A stretch of DNA of 64,000 bases, taken from the NCBI RefSeq assembly GCF_041346925.1, contig NZ_CP166840.1, positions 682,001 through 746,000 of the forward strand, given 5' to 3'. Shown here piece after piece: positions 41,480 through 64,000 of the stretch. Every line of letters begins with the position of its first letter. Position 1 is the first letter of the stretch. The notes beneath the pieces are model-generated. The model had not been told where the DNA came from. It searched no databases and saw nothing but the letters and a program-made list of their open reading frames with translations. A program made the position numbers and the translations under genes. Source of the stretch: Agaribacterium sp. ZY112 (lineage in GTDB: Bacteria; Pseudomonadota; Gammaproteobacteria; Pseudomonadales; Cellvibrionaceae).

Positions 41480-43471
41480 TTAAGGTTCACCAATGGCGGC
41501 ATTAACAAAGTCTAGAGCTTCTATAATAAAGCGTTCTCTCGAATCAGCCTTATTAAGATAATGCCCCTCACCCTTTAACTTAATAAATTCGACGTTCTTC
41601 TTACTTTTTTTCAATTTTTTGTACATTAACTTAGATTGATCGATATTGACAACATCATCATCCTTACCGTGTATTAATAAAATAGGTGACGTGAAATTTT
41701 CTGCATAATTAGCAGGTGACTTTTTATCTAAATCAGTTTTATCTAGACCACCGTCTTTAATAACACGATCCCAATAATTCAGAATAGAACTATAACGGCC
41801 ATGGTCACGCCTTTCCGTCTTTAGCATTTTATTTAGCTCACTGACACCCGCAAATGAAACAACGCACTTATATAACTCAGGAGTAAAAGCACCGCCTGCA
41901 AGTGCAGCATACCCACCATAACTAGCACCAACAATGCAAACTCTATTTTTATCGATAATACCCTGTTCAATCATCGCGAGTAGAGCGTCACTGATATCTT
42001 CCTGCATTTTACCACCCCACTCACCTCGCCCCGCTATTTTAAATGAATGGCCAAAGCCTGAGGAACCTCGAAATTGTGGCTGTAGTACAGCGTAACCCTC
42101 ATTAGCAAATGCTTGCGCCCACCAATCAAAACCAATTTGATCATAAGACTCTGGCCCTCCATGTGGCATTACGATAGCCGGCAGATTCTTTAAAGAATCC
42201 ACTTTATAACGAGGAACAGTTAATAACACCGGTATCACTAAGCCATCTCTAGCTTTGATATTACTTGCGACAATAGGGTGAATATCCTTTACATCAACAG
42301 CAGGCCGTGACGTCGTAAGAAAACGAGGTTTCTTATCCTTTGAAAATAAATAATAGTCGCCAGGACTCTGCACGCCCGACACATAAGCAATGATATGATC
42401 TGTATTGTCAACACTCGGCATAATACGAACATTCTGCCCCTTGAATGATGCTAAAATTTGCTCAATGCGTCCCTGCAACTCCGAATCAAAAAATTCATAC
42501 GTTGGTAAAAAGCCACTATAAGACAGGCCTATGACTTTTCGGTTGACTGTCTGGTAATAATCTTCGATAAGGCTTTTATCCCTCTTATAAAGCGGACCAG
42601 ATAAACTACCATCGATTAAAGACATCAAGCGATATTCTTCTGCCTCACTATTTTCAGGCTGTAACACAACTACTATCGAATCCTCATCGTTGCTTAAACC
42701 TATAAAACCAAGCTCGATCATTGCCGCTCGTTGCTTAAAAATACTTTCCCATTTTTTCCCGCGCTTAACCTGAAGCTCATGCAGATCATTAACCGAATCG
42801 TAAAGCTCTCGGGCGACCAATTCACCTTGGTCGTTCATAAAAAAATCGACAGCATTCTTGTGGCCAGAATCAAAAACAATAGGATGATCTGGATCACCCA
42901 AATCCACCTTCATCAATGAGTAGCGAGTTTTTTGATTACCACGAATACTATCGGTCTGTGTAAAGGCAGGCATAAATACGTACTTAGCATCTTTAGACAC
43001 ACCAACAACATGGCCCATACCATCCTGCCAACTATATATATTGTCACCACGAGTTAGTAACTGCTTAATAGTTGACTTTTTTATGTCCAGCACAAAAGCG
43101 GTACTATGATCGAGCCTCGACCGTAGATCACGAGCCAAAATAATGAGCCTATTTTCATCCAAAAACCAAAATTCCAAAGGATGAATATCAGACAAGTCAT
43201 ATGCACCAATAAGTGTATTTTTTTCAGTAGAAACGACATGTAAACGATCTATGTCTCGATCACGCTTGCGAAATGCGACTACCCCCCCAGTCTGAGATAC
43301 CGCCATGAGCGATACACTAGGTGGAGCAGCATAGTCTTCTCGACTTGGCTTAGCATCAACGTAGGAGACTGTAGCAACGAACAACAATACGTAAATACAT
43401 TTTTTTGCTATAAGACAAACTAAGTGCTTATACAATATGAACGGGCCTTCCATGAATAATTTACTTATCAT
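41480..43471 (-). CDS. Secreted S9-family prolyl oligopeptidase-like peptidase
   Basis: 663 residues. A signal peptide or anchor spans about 20-40 (CIYVLLFVATVSYVDA). Residues about 45-400 should form the beta-propeller that filters substrates. The alpha/beta hydrolase domain (about 410-660) has the triad: nucleophile Ser in GASYGGYAAL (about 517), Asp in HGKDDDVV (about 605) and His in GEGHYLNK (about 638). It hydrolyses short peptides, probably in the periplasm. The start is uncertain: ATG at 43471 or 43453, neither with a good ribosome site. Divergent from the glucosylglycerate operon. Confidence 0.88.
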   Translation of the reverse strand: MISKLFMEGPFILYKHLVCLIAKKCIYVLLFVATVSYVDAKPSREDYAAPPSVSLMAVSQTGGVVAFRKRDRDIDRLHVVSTEKNTLIGAYDLSDIHPLEFWFLDENRLIILARDLRSRLDHSTAFVLDIKKSTIKQLLTRGDNIYSWQDGMGHVVGVSKDAKYVFMPAFTQTDSIRGNQKTRYSLMKVDLGDPDHPIVFDSGHKNAVDFFMNDQGELVARELYDSVNDLHELQVKRGKKWESIFKQRAAMIELGFIGLSNDEDSIVVVLQPENSEAEEYRLMSLIDGSLSGPLYKRDKSLIEDYYQTVNRKVIGLSYSGFLPTYEFFDSELQGRIEQILASFKGQNVRIMPSVDNTDHIIAYVSGVQSPGDYYLFSKDKKPRFLTTSRPAVDVKDIHPIVASNIKARDGLVIPVLLTVPRYKVDSLKNLPAIVMPHGGPESYDQIGFDWWAQAFANEGYAVLQPQFRGSSGFGHSFKIAGRGEWGGKMQEDISDALLAMIEQGIIDKNRVCIVGASYGGYAALAGGAFTPELYKCVVSFAGVSELNKMLKTERRDHGRYSSILNYWDRVIKDGGLDKTDLDKKSPANYAENFTSPILLIHGKDDDVVNIDQSKLMYKKLKKSKKNVEFIKLKGEGHYLNKADSRERFIIEALDFVNAAIGEP

Positions 43472-43613
43472 TGTCTTATTTATTCTCTAGCTATTATTAG
43501 CAGATATTTTAACAGCGCAAAACACCCGCCTGTAATCTTTGCTCCGTTTTTTTAGTTTGCTCTGAATTTTTAATCACTTACACCTTCAACGGTGACAAGC
43601 CTCTAGAAGCAAC

Positions 43614-43630
43614 TTGGATCAATACTTGCA
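43614..43630 (+). promoter_or_regulatory. Sigma-54 promoter of the glucosylglycerate operon
   Basis: TTGGATCAATACTTGCA. GG (43616-43617) and GC (43628-43629) are separated by exactly 10 bases, as sigma-54 polymerase requires, and the flanks match YTGG and TTGCW. Transcription should begin near 43641, about 98 bases before the first start codon. Confidence 0.65.
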
Positions 43631-43685
43631 GAGTCTCTTAATCATTAAAGCCTTATATATACGTTAGGCTTTGGCGACCACAAAA

Positions 43686-43702
43686 TGCACCACAAGGGTG
43701 CA
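43686..43702. promoter_or_regulatory. NtrC-type palindrome in the leader of the glucosylglycerate operon
   Basis: TGCACC-ACAAG-GGTGCA, a perfect palindrome that fits the NtrC site pattern TGCACC-N5-GGTGCA. It lies downstream of the predicted sigma-54 start. A second pair, GGTGC / GCACC, overlaps it on the right, and CACCA / TGGTG arms reach almost to the start codon. The region can therefore also fold as alternative RNA hairpins. Confidence 0.6.
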
Positions 43703-43738
43703 ACCGTGCGCACCAAGGCTAGAAAGTGGTGAACCAAG

Positions 43739-44638
43739 ATGGCTCATAGCTATATAGAAAACCTGATAAAAGAAGAGAAGCTGCCCGCAAGCTTTGCCAA
43801 ACAGGTGGAACAATACTATCTACCGATAGCAGGACAGATTGGCCGATCCGCAAAGATTAAAAGTATGGTCTTAGGCCTACAAGGCTCTCAAGGGTCGGGC
43901 AAAAGCACAACAGCACTTTTTTTAAAAGCCATTCTAGAACAAGAGCACCAACTTAAATGCGCAGTACTATCTCTAGATGACTTTTACTTAAGCAAGTTAG
44001 AACGGCAGAGCCTCAGTCAAAAAGTGCACCCTTTATTAGCCACCCGCGGCGTGCCTGGCACTCATGATGTTGATTTTGCCATTCGCACAATTCAAAACCT
44101 TCTAAATTCTGAGCGTAAGCAAAGTGTCAAATTACCTCGCTTTAATAAAGCCATGGATGATCGTTACGACGAAAGTTTTTGGGATAAACAAAACCCACCT
44201 GTTGATATTGTCATCTTTGAGGGCTGGTGCGTAGGTGCTGAGGCTCAAAGCTTAGAAGAGCTAGCAGAGCCAATTAACAAACTCGAGCAAGATGAAGACA
44301 GTAATGGCTCTTGGCGCCGTTATATCAACAATAAATTGGAGCATGAATATCAACAATTATTCTCTCTGATTGATGCTCTTATTGTAGTCGAAGCACCAAG
44401 CTTCGACTGCGTATTTGAATGGCGATCACTACAAGAAAAAAAGTTAAGAGATAAAAGCCAGCAAGAACATAGCTTAGCGACCCAAATTATGGACGAGCAA
44501 GAACTGCTTAGATTTATTAGCCACTATGAGCGACTAACACGACACTGCCTTAAAACACTTGGCCCTAAAAGCCATTTTTTATTAAAACTACGCAGTGATC
44601 ATCAAGTTGAATCACTCCAAATTTCAAGGTCTCTATGA
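43739..44638 (+). CDS. D-glycerate 3-kinase (GLYK type)
   Basis: 299 residues, P-loop kinase. Walker A is GLQGSQGSGKST (about residue 45-56), followed by SLDDFYLSKLERQ and the GTHD motif of plant-type glycerate kinases, then IFEGWCVG and FEWRSLQEKKLR. It makes 3-phosphoglycerate from D-glycerate and ATP. In this operon it can prime glucosylglycerate synthesis or recover the glycerate released by the phosphorylase two genes downstream. Its stop overlaps the ATG of the next gene by four bases. Confidence 0.9.
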   Translation: MAHSYIENLIKEEKLPASFAKQVEQYYLPIAGQIGRSAKIKSMVLGLQGSQGSGKSTTALFLKAILEQEHQLKCAVLSLDDFYLSKLERQSLSQKVHPLLATRGVPGTHDVDFAIRTIQNLLNSERKQSVKLPRFNKAMDDRYDESFWDKQNPPVDIVIFEGWCVGAEAQSLEELAEPINKLEQDEDSNGSWRRYINNKLEHEYQQLFSLIDALIVVEAPSFDCVFEWRSLQEKKLRDKSQQEHSLATQIMDEQELLRFISHYERLTRHCLKTLGPKSHFLLKLRSDHQVESLQISRSL

Positions 44639-45414
44639 ACAAAAGTATCAAGCCCTTACTTATTTCAACAGACCTAGATGGTACTTTATTAGATCATCAC
44701 ACCTATAGCTGGAAGGCCGCAGAAGAAAGTATTAACAGACTAAAGTCACTCAATTACCCCGTGATAATCAACACAAGTAAAACTCGGGATGAAGTGATTA
44801 GCCTACAAAATAAAATCGGCCTAGTTAGCCCTTTTATCGTAGAAAATGGATCGGCCATTTATTATCCAGAAAATGGTGATTACAGAGAGATTGTACTAGG
44901 CTCCCTACGCCAAGATATCGTTAACTTTATTAACGATATAAGACAAGGAAAAAACTGGCAGTTTGAATCCTACAGCGACTGGGACATAGAAACATTGATA
45001 AGCCATACAGGATTGGACCTAGACGCTGCAAAAAAATCAATGTTACGCCGATTTTCAGAACCCTTTATATGGCATGACACTGACAGGGCTTTAAACGAAT
45101 TTAAACAGTGCATAGAATCCGCTGGTTTTCGCCTACTCAAGGGTGGGCGTTTTTTTCATATACTAGGTCAAAGTGACAAAGGCCAAGCCATTAAATCACT
45201 TGACGAAAATTACTCAAACAACACAACACTTGTATGCTTAGGAGATAGCTATAACGACTTAGATATGTTGGCAGCTGCCGACATCGCCGTACTCGTTCGA
45301 TCGCCAGCTTACGGCTTCCCTGAATTTAGTACAGACAAAGAATTAATACGAACGACTGCCATGGGGCCTGAAGGCTGGCACGAAGCAATGAATTCAATAA
45401 TAAATAGAGGTTAA
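44635..45414 (+). CDS. Glucosyl/mannosyl-3-phosphoglycerate phosphatase (HAD-IIB)
   Basis: 259 residues. HAD motifs: STDLDGTLLDHHTY (nucleophile Asp in DLDGT), INTSKTR, and CLGDSYNDLDMLAAAD. The length and the LVSPFIVENGSAIYYP segment match the mannosyl-3-phosphoglycerate phosphatase (MpgP/YedP) family. Next to gpgS, the substrate should be glucosyl-3-phosphoglycerate, and the product glucosylglycerate. It overlaps the kinase by four bases, and gpgS begins one base after its stop. Confidence 0.88.
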   Translation: MNKSIKPLLISTDLDGTLLDHHTYSWKAAEESINRLKSLNYPVIINTSKTRDEVISLQNKIGLVSPFIVENGSAIYYPENGDYREIVLGSLRQDIVNFINDIRQGKNWQFESYSDWDIETLISHTGLDLDAAKKSMLRRFSEPFIWHDTDRALNEFKQCIESAGFRLLKGGRFFHILGQSDKGQAIKSLDENYSNNTTLVCLGDSYNDLDMLAAADIAVLVRSPAYGFPEFSTDKELIRTTAMGPEGWHEAMNSIINRG

Positions 45415-45415
45415 T

Positions 45416-46636
45416 ATGGGTGATTTTTATCAAAATGGAATTATTACGACTCTGCATGATTTAAAGCAGCGTCCCTTAGAGCACATGGAAGATGAGCTGC
45501 GCCAGTTCTCCCAAACTAGACCGATGGGTCTTATTCTACCGTCACTTTTCAGTGAACTAGAAGGCGACGCACTTGCCAACATCGTTAACGAACTAAGTAA
45601 AGTTGACTACCTCAATGAAATTGTTATTGGTTTAGACAGAGCAACAGAAGAAGAATATCGCTATGCGCTCAAATTCTTCGAGCCTCTAAAACAAAATTTC
45701 AAAGTACTGTGGAATGATGGCCCCCGCCTGCGTGCTATTGATGAAAAATTACGAAATGAGGGATTAGCACCAACAGAACCCGGCAAAGGCCGCAACGTTT
45801 GGTATTGTATGGGGTATACCTTGGCTTCAGGTAAAGCTGAAAGTATCGCCCTTCACGATTGTGACATTGTCACTTATGATCGCTCACTGCTTGCACGCTT
45901 ACTCTACCCTGTTGCCAACCCTAATTTTAACTACGAGTTTTGTAAGGGCTATTACGCCCGAGTAGCCAGCGGCAAGATTCACGGTCGCGTCAGCAGACTG
46001 TTAGTGACACCATTAATTAGAGCGTTAAAACGCACTATCGGCCATAACGACTATTTAGATTTTATTGATAGCTTTCGCTACCCCCTCGCTGGTGAGTTTT
46101 CTTTCCGAGCCGATGTCATGACCGATATTCGTATCCCAAGTGACTGGGGCCTAGAGGTTGGCGTACTTTCAGAAATGAATAGAAACTATGCTAATAACCG
46201 CTTGTGTCAGGCCGATATTGCCGATGTCTACGATCATAAACATCAAGAGCTAAGCCCTGAAGATGCAGCTAAAGGCTTAAGTAAAATGTCCATCGACATT
46301 AGTAAAGCTTTATTCAGAAAACTCGCCACAAACGGTATTGTATTTAATAGCGAGACTTTCAGATCAATTAAAGCGACCTATTTCCGTATCGCTCTCGACT
46401 TTGTCGAAACTTACTACAATGATGCACGCATGAATGGCTTAAAGCTCGATGTACACAGCGAAGAAAAAGCGGTGGAACTATTCGCTAAAAACATTTTGGC
46501 AGCAGGCCAAAGCTTTTTAGACAACCCTATGGAAAAACCTTTTGTGCCTAGCTGGAACCGAGTAACAAGTGCCATACCTGATGTACTTGAACAAATTCAT
46601 ACTGCCGTAGATCAAGACATGGAAGAGTATTCCTAA
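45416..46636 (+). CDS. gpgS: Glucosyl-3-phosphoglycerate synthase (GT81)
   Basis: 406 residues. It transfers glucose from an NDP-glucose to 3-phosphoglycerate. The start MGDFYQNGIITTLHDLKQR, the IVIGLDRAT segment, the metal-binding IALHDCDIVTYDR and the late FRYPLAGEFSFRADV and WGLEVGVLSEM are all typical of GpgS. It is the committed step for glucosylglycerate, a compatible solute known to build up under salt stress with nitrogen shortage. The upstream context (sigma-54 and NtrC-type sites) agrees with that physiology. Confidence 0.93.
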   Translation: MGDFYQNGIITTLHDLKQRPLEHMEDELRQFSQTRPMGLILPSLFSELEGDALANIVNELSKVDYLNEIVIGLDRATEEEYRYALKFFEPLKQNFKVLWNDGPRLRAIDEKLRNEGLAPTEPGKGRNVWYCMGYTLASGKAESIALHDCDIVTYDRSLLARLLYPVANPNFNYEFCKGYYARVASGKIHGRVSRLLVTPLIRALKRTIGHNDYLDFIDSFRYPLAGEFSFRADVMTDIRIPSDWGLEVGVLSEMNRNYANNRLCQADIADVYDHKHQELSPEDAAKGLSKMSIDISKALFRKLATNGIVFNSETFRSIKATYFRIALDFVETYYNDARMNGLKLDVHSEEKAVELFAKNILAAGQSFLDNPMEKPFVPSWNRVTSAIPDVLEQIHTAVDQDMEEYS

Positions 46637-46729
46637 GGGTAAAACAAGGAAGTTAGTGCAAAGTTAATAGCAGTATTAATACTACTTATATCGAACAGAA
46701 ACTCTTTTACAGAAGCAACGAGTAAACGA

Positions 46730-48469
46730 ATGAATACTGAGGCGAAAAACGAATTACAGTTTGTTCTGACAAGTCACTTAAGTTTTATCTACGAAAGCCA
46801 CGATGCGGCGGCATTGAGTGATGAACTGATAAACATAATGGACTTAAATGCCAACTGTCAGAAGCCCAGTAGCCACCAAAGCACATGGGATGAGCAACAC
46901 GCTTATCTTATTTGCTATGGAGACTCCATTCGCTGTGAACACGAACAGCCTTTAAAAACCTTGTCACGCTTTTATGAGAAAGAACTTAAGGGCGTGATAA
47001 GTGGCATGCATATCTTGCCCTTCTTTCCTTACAGCTCTGATGATGGTTTTTCTGTCATCGACTACGCCCAAGTCAATGACAGCCTAGGCGATTGGGATGA
47101 TATCGAACAAATTGCCAAGCAGTGCCGTTTAATGTCTGACCTTGTTATTAACCATTGCTCAAGTCGGAGCCGTTGGTTCGATAATTTCAAACAAAATAAG
47201 CACCCTGGTGCCAATTACTTTTTTGAGGCCTCGACGGAAGATGATCTGAGCATGGTGGTTAGGCCAAGAACCTCACCGCTGCTCAGAGAAGTAGAAACCT
47301 TAGAGGGGAAAAAATACGTCTGGTGCACCTTTAGTCACGATCAAGTCGATCTAGATTTTTCAAACCCTGAAGTCCTTAAAGAGTTTGTAAAAATCATAAA
47401 ACTTTATCTCGACAAAGGAATACGAACTTTTCGTCTGGATGCGGTAGCCTTTATCTGGAAAGAAATTGGCCATGCAAGCATCCACCATGAAAAGACTCAT
47501 GAAATCATTCGCCTGCTACGTAATTTAATTGAGTACCACAGCCCAGAAGCAATCATCATTACTGAAACCAATGTTCCCAACCACGAGAACCTAAGCTATT
47601 TTGGTAACGCCAACGAGGCTCACGCTGTTTACAATTTTAGCCTACCACCACTTGTGCTCCATGCAATGGTTACAGGTAACAGCCAACATTTGAAGCACTG
47701 GCAGATGAGCATGCCCCCCGCTCAACTTGGCACTTTCTATTTTAATTTTCTCGCCTCTCACGATGGCATTGGCCTGCGCCCAGCTGAAGGCTTATTAGAT
47801 GAAGACGAAATAGGCACTGTCGTTAATTGTATGCAGCAATTCGGCGCCCGAATTAATTGGCGTAGTGCCGCCAATGGGGTTAGCAAACCTTACGAAATCA
47901 ACATCACCTATTTTGATGCGATGCAAGGCACACATAAAGGCCCAGACCAATGGCAATTACAACGCTTTTTGTGCGCACATGCGATAATGCTCAGCCTAGA
48001 AGGCGTACCAGCCGTCTATATTCAAAGCCTTGTGGGTGGACAAAACTGGGAGCAAGGTGTCGAACTCAGTGGCCAGAACCGAGCTATTAATCGCTACAAG
48101 TGGAACTTTGATGAACTTTGCGGCAAGCTCAATGATGAACATACACACCACAATAAAGTCTTCTCCAATCTGAAGAAGCTGCTTGGCATACGCTGCCAAC
48201 AGCCCGCCTTTCATCCTAATGCGACACAGTTTACCCTGCACCTCGGTGACCAAATTTTTGCATTCTGGCGCCAAAGCTTAAAACGCGATCAAAGCATTTT
48301 TTGTATACACAATATTAGTGATGAAAAACTAAGTATTCCGCTTTCATCGATCAACCTGATTCAACTGGATCAATGGTACGACTTGGTCAGCGGCAAGCCC
48401 TTTAATGATCTTCAACAAGACCTTGTACTAGCACCCTACGGTTTTGTTTGGTTGAGTAATAAGCTTTAA
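46730..48469 (+). CDS. GH13_18 sugar phosphorylase, probable glucosylglycerate phosphorylase
   Basis: 579 residues. Related to sucrose phosphorylase: HILPFFPYSSDDGFSVIDY near the start, the nucleophile Asp in TFRLDAVAF, acid/base Glu in ITETNVP, and the third acid in FLASHDGIGLRP. Several members of subfamily 18 split glucosylglycerate with phosphate to glucose 1-phosphate and glycerate. Placement 93 bases after gpgS, and the kinase at the head of the operon, favour that activity over sucrose. The operon would then hold both synthesis and recycling. Sucrose or glucosylglycerol as substrate remain possible. Confidence 0.85.
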   Translation: MNTEAKNELQFVLTSHLSFIYESHDAAALSDELINIMDLNANCQKPSSHQSTWDEQHAYLICYGDSIRCEHEQPLKTLSRFYEKELKGVISGMHILPFFPYSSDDGFSVIDYAQVNDSLGDWDDIEQIAKQCRLMSDLVINHCSSRSRWFDNFKQNKHPGANYFFEASTEDDLSMVVRPRTSPLLREVETLEGKKYVWCTFSHDQVDLDFSNPEVLKEFVKIIKLYLDKGIRTFRLDAVAFIWKEIGHASIHHEKTHEIIRLLRNLIEYHSPEAIIITETNVPNHENLSYFGNANEAHAVYNFSLPPLVLHAMVTGNSQHLKHWQMSMPPAQLGTFYFNFLASHDGIGLRPAEGLLDEDEIGTVVNCMQQFGARINWRSAANGVSKPYEINITYFDAMQGTHKGPDQWQLQRFLCAHAIMLSLEGVPAVYIQSLVGGQNWEQGVELSGQNRAINRYKWNFDELCGKLNDEHTHHNKVFSNLKKLLGIRCQQPAFHPNATQFTLHLGDQIFAFWRQSLKRDQSIFCIHNISDEKLSIPLSSINLIQLDQWYDLVSGKPFNDLQQDLVLAPYGFVWLSNKL

Positions 48470-48576: not shown

Positions 48577-49809
48577 ATGGATAGCACGCTCAAAGTACTT
48601 GTCGTTGATGATAGCCTCAGCCAGTGTCAGCTACTGTGCAACTACCTTAGCCACTACGGTGTAAGCTCAGTTGAATACTGCCATGATGGTCAGGCCGCTT
48701 TAGATAAAGTTGATAAAGACAGAGCACGACCTTATGACGCCATCTTTATAGATTTACATATGGAGGGGATGGACGGGCTAGAGTTAATGCAACAACTCAA
48801 CAAGCGTTTTTATCGTGGTGGCGTGGTCATTGTGTCCTCCCTCGATAGCCGTATTATTGATTACACAATGGAGGTCGTCTCTGATTACAACCTGCGCTTA
48901 CTTGGCTCTATTGAGAAACCTATAGAACGCTCCTTAGTTGCCTTTATGGTACGCCGTATTCGCAGCTTTAATAACACCAAGATCAACCCTGAAAACCTCC
49001 CCAAGCGCAGAGACATTAACGTCGCCATGCTGAATAATCAGCTTGAAGTTTATTTTCAGCCCATTATCAATGCCGACAATAACACTATCTACAGTCTTGA
49101 ATGTTTATGTCGCTTGAATATGGATGGCCGAGGCTGCTTAACACCCAGCGATTTCTTACCAGTGATCGAGAAGTTCGACCTATTCCCTGTATTTATGGAG
49201 AAACTAATCGAAGCCGCCGCACAAGGTTTAACTCGGTTTGAAAAAAAAACCGGCTTAGCCCCTATTATATCGATTAACCTCAGCCCCAGGCAGTTACTAG
49301 ATGAGTGCCTACCAGAAACGTTGAATGAACTGCTAAAAAGCAAGCATATTGATAAAAGCCGAGTAAAATTTGAGATTACAGAGAATGACAATTTAAATGC
49401 CGACGTGCAAAAGAAGAATTTAAGCCGATTACGTATTCAAGGTTTTGATTTAAGTTTAGATGACTATGGCGCGGGTTATACCAACCTAAGACAAATTATT
49501 AAGATGCCATTTACAGAAATCAAACTCGATACTGAATTAATTAACGGTATGCATAAAGATAGAGTACTACGAATAATCGTAGAGAGCATTCAAAATCTCT
49601 GTGCAGAATTAAAGCTAGACCTCGTAGCCGAAGGTGTTGCCAATGCTCAAGACCTTATCCTATTAGATGACATTGGTGTGCGCTTATTTCAAGGTTATTT
49701 CTTTTCACGCCCCAAACCAATTGATGAGTTAATTCGCTGGTATCAAAGCTGGCAAAAAACAATAGAAGCCAGCTGCGATAGAGATAAACGCTTCTTCGAT
49801 AAAAGATAA
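48577..49809 (+). CDS. Response regulator with EAL phosphodiesterase domain
   Basis: 410 residues. Receiver domain 1-125 with acidic pair Asp11/Asp12 and phospho-acceptor Asp59 (FIDLHMEGMDG). EAL domain about 150-395. The EAL signature reads ECL, but Glu is kept, as are Asn in INLSP, Glu in FEITEN, the acidic pair in LDDYGAGYTN, Lys in EIKLD, Glu in VAEGVA, and Gln in FQGYFFSRP. The set looks complete enough to degrade c-di-GMP. No histidine kinase is adjacent. It would oppose the diguanylate cyclase at 24.5 kb. Confidence 0.92.
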   Translation: MDSTLKVLVVDDSLSQCQLLCNYLSHYGVSSVEYCHDGQAALDKVDKDRARPYDAIFIDLHMEGMDGLELMQQLNKRFYRGGVVIVSSLDSRIIDYTMEVVSDYNLRLLGSIEKPIERSLVAFMVRRIRSFNNTKINPENLPKRRDINVAMLNNQLEVYFQPIINADNNTIYSLECLCRLNMDGRGCLTPSDFLPVIEKFDLFPVFMEKLIEAAAQGLTRFEKKTGLAPIISINLSPRQLLDECLPETLNELLKSKHIDKSRVKFEITENDNLNADVQKKNLSRLRIQGFDLSLDDYGAGYTNLRQIIKMPFTEIKLDTELINGMHKDRVLRIIVESIQNLCAELKLDLVAEGVANAQDLILLDDIGVRLFQGYFFSRPKPIDELIRWYQSWQKTIEASCDRDKRFFDKR

Positions 49810-60184: not shown

Positions 60185-60220
60185 TGGTGCACCATAAACA
60201 GAGAGGCACCAATATGGTGC
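60185..60220. promoter_or_regulatory. NtrC-type enhancer sites upstream of glnII
   Basis: GCACC-AATAT-GGTGC (60206-60220) fits the NtrC core GCACC-N5-GGTGC exactly. A second palindrome, TGGTGCACCA (60185-60194), lies two helical turns upstream. They are about 135 to 160 bases before the sigma-54 promoter, the normal enhancer position. Confidence 0.75.
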
Positions 60221-60352
60221 TTACCTAATATAAAAATCCTCTTTACTACGCGCAGAGCTCGGAAATACAAGCCTATAAGTAATAAGGTCAAGTCAGTATT
60301 TGTGCGCCTTAACAGGGCGTTTTAGATAGATTGAAAACTGTTTAAGGAAAGT

Positions 60353-60368
60353 TGGAACAGAACTTGCG
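60353..60368 (+). promoter_or_regulatory. Sigma-54 promoter of glnII
   Basis: TGGAACAGAACTTGCG. GG (60354-60355) and GC (60366-60367) are exactly 10 bases apart, one base off the consensus TGGCACR-N4-TTGCW in the -24 part. The start of transcription should be near 60379. Confidence 0.75.
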
Positions 60369-60442
60369 ATTAAGAATCCCATTAACGACCGGGCCAGAGC
60401 CTAGTCAATCATTCAAAACCCCTTATTGGAGTGAAACTCAAT

Positions 60443-61468
60443 ATGAAAAGTAAGTTGGAATACATCTGGCTTGACGGCTACCAGCCAACCCAAAGCATGC
60501 GTAGTAAAACTATGGTACGCAACAACTTCGGTGGCACTTTAGAAGAATGTCCTATGTGGTCTTTCGACGGTTCTTCTACCGAGCAAGCTGACGGTAACGA
60601 CTCTGACTGCCTGCTTAAGCCTGTAGCGATTATCCCTGATCCAGACCGTTCTAACGCTTACTTAGTAATGACTGAAGTTCTTAACGCTGACGGCACTCCT
60701 CACGTAAGTAACGGTCGTGCAACCATCGACGAAGCAGAAGACGATGACGATTTCTGGTTCGGTTTTGAAGCTGAATACTTCTTGTGGGATACCACTACTG
60801 ACCGCCCACCTGGTTTCCCTGCCGGTGGTTTCCCTGACCCACAAGGCCCTTACTACTGCTCAGTCGGTGCTAAAAACGCTTTCGGTCGTGAAATCATCGA
60901 AGAGCACATGGACCTTTGTCTTGAAGCGGGCCTTAACCTTGAAGGTATCAACGCTGAAGTTGCTGCTGGCCAGTGGGAATTCCAAATCTTCGCTAAAGGC
61001 GCCAAGCGCGCTGGTGACGAAATCTGGTTGGGCCGCTACTTGCTAGAGCGCACTGCTGAGAAATACGGTTACGCAATCGAGTGGCATCCGAAGCCTCTTG
61101 GTGATACTGACTGGAACGGTTCTGGTATGCACGCTAACTTCTCTAACGGCGCAATGCGTGACAACGGTGACGAGGCTGTATTCACCGCGATCTGTGAAGA
61201 GTTCGGTAAAAACATCGAACGTCACATCAGCGTTTATGGTGCAGACAACCACCAACGCTTGACTGGTAAGCACGAAACTCAAGCTATCGACGAATTCAGC
61301 TACGGCGTATCGGACCGCGGCGCATCTATCCGCATCCCTGTTGGCACTGTTGAAGATGGCTGGAAAGGTCGTCTTGAAGACCGTCGCCCTGCTTCTAACG
61401 CAGATCCATACAAGGTTGCTGCTGCAATCGTTAAAACAACTAACGAAGCTATGGCTAAATACAGCTAA
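60443..61468 (+). CDS. glnII: Glutamine synthetase type II (eukaryotic type)
   Basis: 341 residues, the short length typical of GSII and well below the 470 of GlnA. It joins ammonium and glutamate with ATP. Start MKSKLEYIWLDGYQPTQ, then MWSFDGSSTEQADG, FGFEAEYFLW, YYCSVGAKNAFGREI, GINAEVAAGQWEFQI and NGSGMHANFS, all GSII features. GSII lacks the Tyr adenylylation loop of GlnA, so control should be at transcription, which agrees with the sigma-54 and NtrC-type sites. A GTG four codons earlier is less likely. Spacing from GGAG to the ATG is long (12). Confidence 0.96.
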   Translation: MKSKLEYIWLDGYQPTQSMRSKTMVRNNFGGTLEECPMWSFDGSSTEQADGNDSDCLLKPVAIIPDPDRSNAYLVMTEVLNADGTPHVSNGRATIDEAEDDDDFWFGFEAEYFLWDTTTDRPPGFPAGGFPDPQGPYYCSVGAKNAFGREIIEEHMDLCLEAGLNLEGINAEVAAGQWEFQIFAKGAKRAGDEIWLGRYLLERTAEKYGYAIEWHPKPLGDTDWNGSGMHANFSNGAMRDNGDEAVFTAICEEFGKNIERHISVYGADNHQRLTGKHETQAIDEFSYGVSDRGASIRIPVGTVEDGWKGRLEDRRPASNADPYKVAAAIVKTTNEAMAKYS

Positions 61469-63479: not shown

Positions 63480-64000
63480 ATGTCAGAGAAAACTCTGAAT
63501 TTGATCAAAGAGAGCGAAGCCCGCTGGGTTGACCTGCGCTTCACCGATACTAAAGGTAAAGAGCAACACGTAACCATCCCTGTTTCTGAAGTAGGCGAGA
63601 GCTTCTTCGAAGAAGGCAAAATGTTCGACGGCTCTTCAATTGCCGGCTGGAAAGGCATTAACGAATCAGACATGATTCTTATGCCAGACGACGAAGCGTC
63701 ATTGCTTGACCCTTTCAGTGATGAGCCTACTGTTATCGTTCGTTGTAACATCGTTGAGCCAACCACTGGCCAAGGTTACGAGCGTGACCCACGTTCAATC
63801 GCAGCTCGCGCTGAAGAGTACTTGAAGTCAACTGGTCTTGGCGACGCAGCTTACTTCGGTCCTGAACCTGAGTTCTTCGTATTTGACGACATCAAGTGGG
63901 GCTCAGACATGAGCGGCTGCTTCTACAAAATCTCTTCTGAAGAAGCTGCTTGGTCTTCAGAGCGTGCTTTCGACGACGGCAACATGGGTCACCGCCCAGG
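63480..64000 (+). CDS. glnA: Glutamine synthetase type I, N-terminal fragment
   Basis: 173 residues of a protein that runs off the right edge. It starts [20 protein letters not shown] with TAGGAA upstream. Visible GSI features are [14 protein letters not shown], the latch [17 protein letters not shown], and the metal ligand region [13 protein letters not shown]. This is the dodecameric enzyme normally controlled by adenylylation of a Tyr further on, outside the window. With glnII, the cell has two unrelated-length glutamine synthetases within 3 kb of each other. Confidence 0.97.

Follow-up and report, generated by a model that had tools for sequence, protein, structure and literature searches.

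The operon and its promoter region

The window considered here is a stretch of 64,000 nucleotides from Agaribacterium sp. ZY112 (contig NZ_CP166840.1, positions 682,001 to 746,000), and positions below are counted from its first letter. It carries an operon of four genes for the compatible solute glucosylglycerate, preceded by a sigma-54-like promoter and a palindrome of the type bound by the nitrogen regulator NtrC. The operon is probably a member of the NtrC/sigma-54 regulon, switched on under nitrogen shortage from the palindrome in its leader, as judged from sequence comparison.

All four genes lie on the plus strand. The first (43739-44638) codes for a probable D-glycerate 3-kinase, a GLYK-like P-loop kinase with no match in Pfam that resembles solved glycerate kinases (7xpc, E 2.7e-19; 6ckg, E 9.2e-19). 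The second (44635-45414) codes for a probable glucosyl-3-phosphoglycerate phosphatase of the HAD-IIB class and MPGP family (TIGR01486, 225 bits, cut-off 164.75; 1xvi, E 1.9e-38). It is followed by a gene for a probable glucosyl-3-phosphoglycerate synthase, GpgS (45416-46636), which reaches 376 bits with NF040724, below the cut-off of 700, and matches solved GpgS chains weakly (E 6.9e-5). The last gene (46730-48469) encodes a GH13 protein like sucrose phosphorylase, probably a glucosylglycerate phosphorylase. It reaches 212 bits with TIGR03852, below the cut-off of 334, and is near solved sucrose and glucosylglycerol phosphorylases (7qqj, 7xdq); its presumed substrate is deduced from the neighbouring genes. 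The specificities of all the operon enzymes are likewise presumed from gene context, the synthase and the phosphorylase both falling below NCBIfam cut-offs.

An initial annotation of the window had named these four genes with the synthase ahead of the phosphatase. All four are present together, in the order kinase, phosphatase, synthase, phosphorylase. The pathway itself is ordinary. Such phosphorylases are already known to stand often beside genes for glycerate kinase, synthase or phosphatase (available part of PMC7178133).

The sigma-54-like promoter, TTGGATCAATACTTGCA, lies at 43614-43630 on the plus strand and scores 11.8, with a predicted transcription start near 43641. Its GG is at 43616-43617 and its GC at 43628-43629, which gives the GG-N10-GC pattern. 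The promoter is where the initial annotation had placed it. The -12 element is good (TTGCA) and the -24 element has two mismatches against TGGCAC, so the word "clean" used for it there was generous. Both the transcription start and the first codon of the kinase are predictions. A consensus scan of 43450-43760 gave no sigma-70-like promoter, which is a weak test, since shuffled sequences average only 0.7.

The palindrome, TGCACCACAAGGGTGCA, reads TGCACC-ACAAG-GGTGCA and lies at 43686-43702, with no strand assigned. It is perfect, as had been annotated, and is the sole exact match to TGCACC-N5-GGTGCA in the 4.28-Mb genome, where the reversed pattern is absent. Allowing up to two mismatches, the pattern has 102 sites in the genome (part of them itemised) against 45 for the reversed control. 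The centre of the palindrome, 43694, is about +53 from the predicted start. This position 3' of the start was absent from the initial annotation. Together with the following TTTTGTGG, the palindrome is terminator-like on the minus strand.

A weak second NtrC-like site, TGAACCAAGATGGCTCA, at 43730-43746 (no strand assigned), overlaps the start codon of the kinase. It is centred at about +97 and scores 8.2, under the counting threshold of 8.6; some relatives have better-scoring sites at this position (9.7 in both L237 and L243). An upstream NtrC site for the promoter was sought as well, and the upstream stretch holds none scoring 8.6 or more.

NtrC, RpoN and other sites in the genome

The genome encodes NtrC (763 bits, model cut-off 558.6) and RpoN, or sigma-54 (494 bits, cut-off 277). 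Gene names for glnII, urtA and ntrB were read from translations, and that of ntrC from its model match. A stricter palindrome, GCACCAWWWTGGTGC, occurs at three sites in the genome when at most one mismatch is allowed, against one for its reversed control. The three precede ntrBC, urtA and glnII, the last of which encodes a GSII-type glutamine synthetase.

The site before glnII, GGCACCAATATGGTGCT, is at 60205-60221 (no strand assigned). A sigma-54 site follows at 60352-60368, and the palindrome is at -166 relative to its predicted start. Only this site and TGCACCACAAGGGTGCA reach an NtrC score of 9 in the window. The palindrome of urtA is similarly at -172 from the predicted start of its sigma-54 site, and no sigma-54 site scoring 11 accompanies that of ntrB. 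The window and 17 further stretches of the same genome, which were picked for holding motif matches and so do not give a genome-wide count, show paired NtrC and sigma-54 sites only at the glucosylglycerate operon, glnII and urtA. The operon palindrome resembles the sites of the nitrogen genes glnII, urtA and ntrB. The stretch 60205-61468 as a whole comprises the GSII-type (eukaryote-like) glutamine synthetase gene with its palindrome and its sigma-54 site at the classic distance.

Conservation across relatives

Relatives of the operon were collected as 80 named loci that encode a related GpgS, the best 80 of at least 587 confirmed, and 80 further stretches from the 147 genomes of the order with a match, among 293 searched. 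With the window this gives 161 upstream regions, none left out. A sigma-54 site of score 11 precedes the first gene in 104 of the 161. Of 225 intergenic upstream regions taken from the named loci for comparison, 6 have one. NtrC sites of score 9 are found in 49/161 and 10/225 respectively, and both sites together in 36/161 and 1/225.

Adding 37 loci of the family brings the set to 198, and merging near-copies reduces these to 143 clusters. A cluster was counted by the majority of its member loci, and an NtrC site of score 9 was accepted from -400 to +230, including the first 230 bases of the first gene. The sigma-54 site of score 11 is present in 92 of the 143 clusters, the NtrC site in 81 and both in 54, against 17, 12 and 2 of 386 control genes, which were not merged by relatedness and may include a few operon genes from incomplete loci. 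The initial annotation had made its proposal depend on conservation in relatives, and both sites are conserved.

Ten Marinomonas loci (L028, L041, L045, L048, L053, L056, L057, L059, L071 and L076) have a near-perfect sigma-54 promoter, CTGGCACCAG(A/T)TTTGCA, before the operon. In Alteromonas the -12 element is TTGT, not TTGC, and because of this the class of the promoter is less sure.

Leader sites in the clade of the window

In many lineages the NtrC site lies upstream of the operon promoter, mostly at -75 to -175 from the predicted start. The clade of the window has a different arrangement. The clade set has 22 loci: the window and the other operon loci that come closest to it in a kinase search of the family, 20 together, plus L005 and L129, which are not on the family list. 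Two of these (L231 and L242) have no sigma-54 site of score 8. All 20 others carry NtrC sites of at least 8.6 between the promoter and codon 4, with 26 such sites in total, and equal stretches upstream of the same promoters carry none. In 500 shuffles, 0.24 loci on average had a site, and at most 2.

The leader sites cluster near +44, +54, +65, +87 and +97, the last overlapping the start codon. Taken together, the 26 positions give R 0.75 at a period of 10.6 base pairs (bp), which suggests that the sites are on one face of the helix, in loci that are related. Sorting them by hand into six position classes gives R 0.98 at 10.6 bp (chance 5e-5), a post hoc value that deserves little weight.

Among the 20 nearest family operon loci, 18 have a sigma-54 site of at least 8.6 lying 114 to 146 bp before the start of the kinase gene, the window included, and 16 have one of at least 11. 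When the clade is aligned on its promoters, the -24/-12 element is the only strongly conserved block, with 1.0-1.2 bits per position. Conservation is 0.28 at +40 to +49, 0.20 at +70 to +79, where there is no counted cluster, and below 0.1 upstream of -40. The 20 loci contain no oppositely oriented sigma-54 site of score 11.

Operon-borne kinases of the family have an NtrC site in 23/38 cases and a sigma-54 site of 11 in 29/38, compared with 0/12 and 1/12 for family kinase genes without an adjoining phosphatase gene. A kinase tree with 133 rows gathers the downstream placement mainly into one supported group, to which the window belongs; of its 28 rows, 20 are downstream, 2 are upstream, 4 have none and 2 have an NtrC site only.

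In three loci (L229, L232 and L243), imperfect NtrC-like palindromes scoring 8.3-8.7 overlap the -24 element. This overlap may be chance, since the NtrC half-site is similar to the -24 consensus.

Sites inside the first gene

For 27 of the named loci with a strong sigma-54 site, no NtrC site lies nearby. Distant upstream enhancers were considered for them, and sites at 383-1400 bp upstream were found in only 1/27. A stretch inside the gene, intended as a control, held NtrC sites in 11/27, and this is how the intragenic sites came to light. The genera whose kinase genes contain them include Haliea, Hahella and Alteromonas.

Across the 198 loci, sites of at least 9 number 46 in the first 100 bases of the first gene, 24 in the next 100 and between 0 and 6 in every bin after that. 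The first 230 bases hold such a site in 50 loci, comprising 49 of the 141 that begin with the kinase and 1 of the 57 that begin with the phosphatase, and in 0/386 control genes. Sixty rounds of synonymous-codon shuffling gave 8.2 loci on average and at most 13, against the 50 observed. Furthermore, one site position recurs immediately ahead of the P-loop. The histidine codon there is CAC in 38 of 39 genes, many of which, Alteromonas in particular, are closely related; elsewhere in the kinase set, histidine is encoded by 694 CAC and 745 CAT codons. This codon use therefore shows that the DNA itself, and not the protein alone, is constrained at the intragenic site.

Some kinase genes have two NtrC-like sites, 41 bp apart, within their first 200 nucleotides. 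Such pairs are seen in L024, L025, L026, L030, L032, L034, L037, L039, L042, L043, L054 and L055, and likewise in L063, L067, L068, L077 and L145. Only the second site of a pair is clearly driven by the DNA, because the first overlaps the codons of the conserved KWF motif.

When the one best site of each cluster is taken (sigma-54 score of at least 10), 22 lie upstream, 19 in the leader and 22 inside the gene. A sigma-54 site of 8.5 is present in 169 loci. An NtrC site of 9 accompanies it in 102 of them, 97 of which use a single placement only. The kinase tree requires at least 11 changes among the three placements, a rough count on branches that are partly unsupported.

Proposed mechanism and alternatives

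The mechanism proposed for the operon is predicted from its sites. When nitrogen is short, phosphorylated NtrC would bind the leader palindrome at about +53, perhaps assisted by the weak site near +97. Looping of the DNA would then allow it to contact the sigma-54 RNA polymerase at 43614-43630, and this contact would trigger transcription of the kinase, phosphatase, synthase and phosphorylase genes. The cell would thereby make glucosylglycerate, a nitrogen-free anion, which the phosphorylase and the kinase could dismantle again.

Control by NtrC and sigma-54, as put forward in the initial annotation, is supported by the conservation of the sites, by the presence of ntrC and rpoN and by the palindromes at glnII, urtA and ntrB. 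The usual picture of an upstream enhancer does not apply to the operon of the window. With less assurance, a wider reading is also favoured: across many marine gammaproteobacteria the operon would belong to the NtrC regulon, and its enhancer would have moved repeatedly among upstream, leader and first coding sequence as the sigma-54 promoter kept its place, so that downstream and intragenic enhancers are a normal, selected layout. The host bacterium is itself probably marine.

Several points weigh against control of this kind. In the classic layout NtrC sites stand about 80-150 bp upstream of the promoter. In this very genome glnII and urtA use upstream sites, and the operon has its site at +53 and an imperfect -24 element. 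No NtrC site of score 9 exists within -400 to +230 in 62 of the 143 clusters, nor within 400 bp at the Marinomonas operon loci, where another activator or weaker sites must serve. The half-sites of the clade are often degenerate. The clade set was also chosen after the placements in the family had been seen, and only 4 of the 18 other family operon loci have a site of at least 8.6 (L253, L261, L262 and L268; three upstream and one inside the first gene). Finally, the score weights are approximations, the thresholds were fixed after first looks (identically for the controls), and the loci are related, with kinship persisting after merging, so that the counts are not independent.

One alternative is that the main effect of NtrC at the leader is to repress or tune the operon by blocking polymerase from some promoter, and that the sigma-54 site is driven otherwise. 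In enteric bacteria NtrC blocks polymerase at ntrB in this way. A protein bound 3' of the start, as at this site, can stand in the way of polymerase, and the ntrB site of the same genome lacks a sigma-54 partner of score 11. However, repression is unlikely: the clade has no second conserved promoter block, the weak consensus scan found no sigma-70-like promoter, and other lineages have classic upstream NtrC sites at the same operon. In addition, glucosylglycerate is favoured in low-nitrogen media (available part of PMC11009771). It is less likely still that the promoter is driven by another enhancer-binding protein, with the NtrC sites being its own binding sites or accessory ones. In favour of this, the genome has 12 matches to the NtrC model above 300 bits (NtrC included), and among the 92 clusters that have a sigma-54 site, 38 lack an NtrC site. 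Against this, the motif resembles the glnII, urtA and ntrB sites of the same genome, and NtrC sites are strongly enriched at the operon.

The remaining two alternatives can be given very little credence. The palindrome could be a hairpin of the leader RNA, serving as an attenuator or in translation control, with no protein bound to the DNA. The leader with the palindrome stem does fold somewhat better than shuffled sequences (z -2.09, with 6 of 200 as good). Yet 39 of the 130 inner pairs in the 26 leader sites of the clade depart from the consensus, and of these none is Watson-Crick, 9 are G-U and 30 are unpaired, in a test that leans against the hairpin because selecting sites by score works against pairs in which both bases have changed. 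Because the changed bases are uncompensated, a DNA site is favoured. The central unscored bases are A or T in 66/78 cases, as in the glnII and urtA sites, which fits a protein site, and in many relatives the motif is upstream of the promoter and outside the transcript. A mere chance meeting of two short motifs is just as improbable. Each does arise alone by chance, as seen in the control genes, but all 20 clade loci have leader sites, and the synonymous-shuffle and codon tests inside the first gene also speak against coincidence. Activation by NtrC from the leader remains the preferred explanation.

Comparison with known systems

The glnA gene of E. coli has an NtrC/sigma-54 promoter with an upstream enhancer, which reportedly also worked from downstream in experiments. 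The operon is like upstream-enhancer promoters, represented here by glnII and urtA, in its palindrome, its -24/-12 promoter and its nitrogen-linked regulator, and in many relatives the glucosylglycerate operon has the same layout. It differs from them in that it targets compatible-solute genes and that, in the clade of the window and others, the site is downstream of the start. In flagellar sigma-54 promoters, the activators FlrC, FleQ and FlbD have sites a short way 3' of the start. The operon shares this placement, whereas the regulator, the signal and the genes are different.

In Bacillus subtilis, the activator of rocG is RocR. This gene has a sigma-54-type promoter and a natural downstream enhancer, 1.5 kb downstream (available part of PMC3844500). 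Because natural sigma-54 downstream enhancers of this kind exist, downstream activation by NtrC would be physically sound. The operon shares with rocG the sigma-54-type promoter with a downstream site, but most of its NtrC sites are no more than about 250 bp away, placed in the leader or the first gene.

The enzymes of the operon are found side by side in the phosphorylase-bearing clusters of Franceus 2017, and the account of these in the available part of PMC7178133 names no regulation. Among the open-licence PMC matches listed, no description of NtrC or RpoN control of glucosylglycerate genes was found, and likewise no case of a natural downstream enhancer for NtrC. Open-licence papers that mention both RpoN and glucosylglycerate draw no link between the two in their available parts. 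Where glucosylglycerate, nitrogen and NtrC are mentioned together, one paper, in the part available, only cites a mycobacterial study, another notes nitrogen-free solutes under nitrogen limitation, and the rest are mycobacterial by title. The switch is a known one; the operon as its target is apparently undescribed, although a prediction may exist elsewhere, and the probable enhancer is placed downstream and even inside coding sequence.

Biological significance

Glucosylglycerate accumulates under nitrogen shortage in several bacteria (available parts of PMC11009771, PMC3308980 and PMC9062515). Dinoroseobacter shibae prefers it when nitrogen is limiting, according to the part of the source available. 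A direct link to NtrC, if true, would provide a mechanism for gammaproteobacteria, in which a nitrogen-bearing osmolyte is swapped for a nitrogen-free one on a nitrogen signal. It would also bear on the proposal that Alteromonas may release glucosylglycerate to Prochlorococcus, perhaps under nutrient limitation (available part of PMC11631117). The mobile enhancer would offer a natural series for the study of downstream sigma-54 activation, including activation from coding DNA whose codons are constrained by the site.

Neighbouring genes

Near the end of the window, a GSI-type glnA gene starts at 63480, and ntrBC then follows beyond the window (names from translations). Directly 3' of the operon and on the same strand, positions 48577-49809 encode a response-regulator/EAL protein, whose best match is to the PvrR model, below its cut-off.

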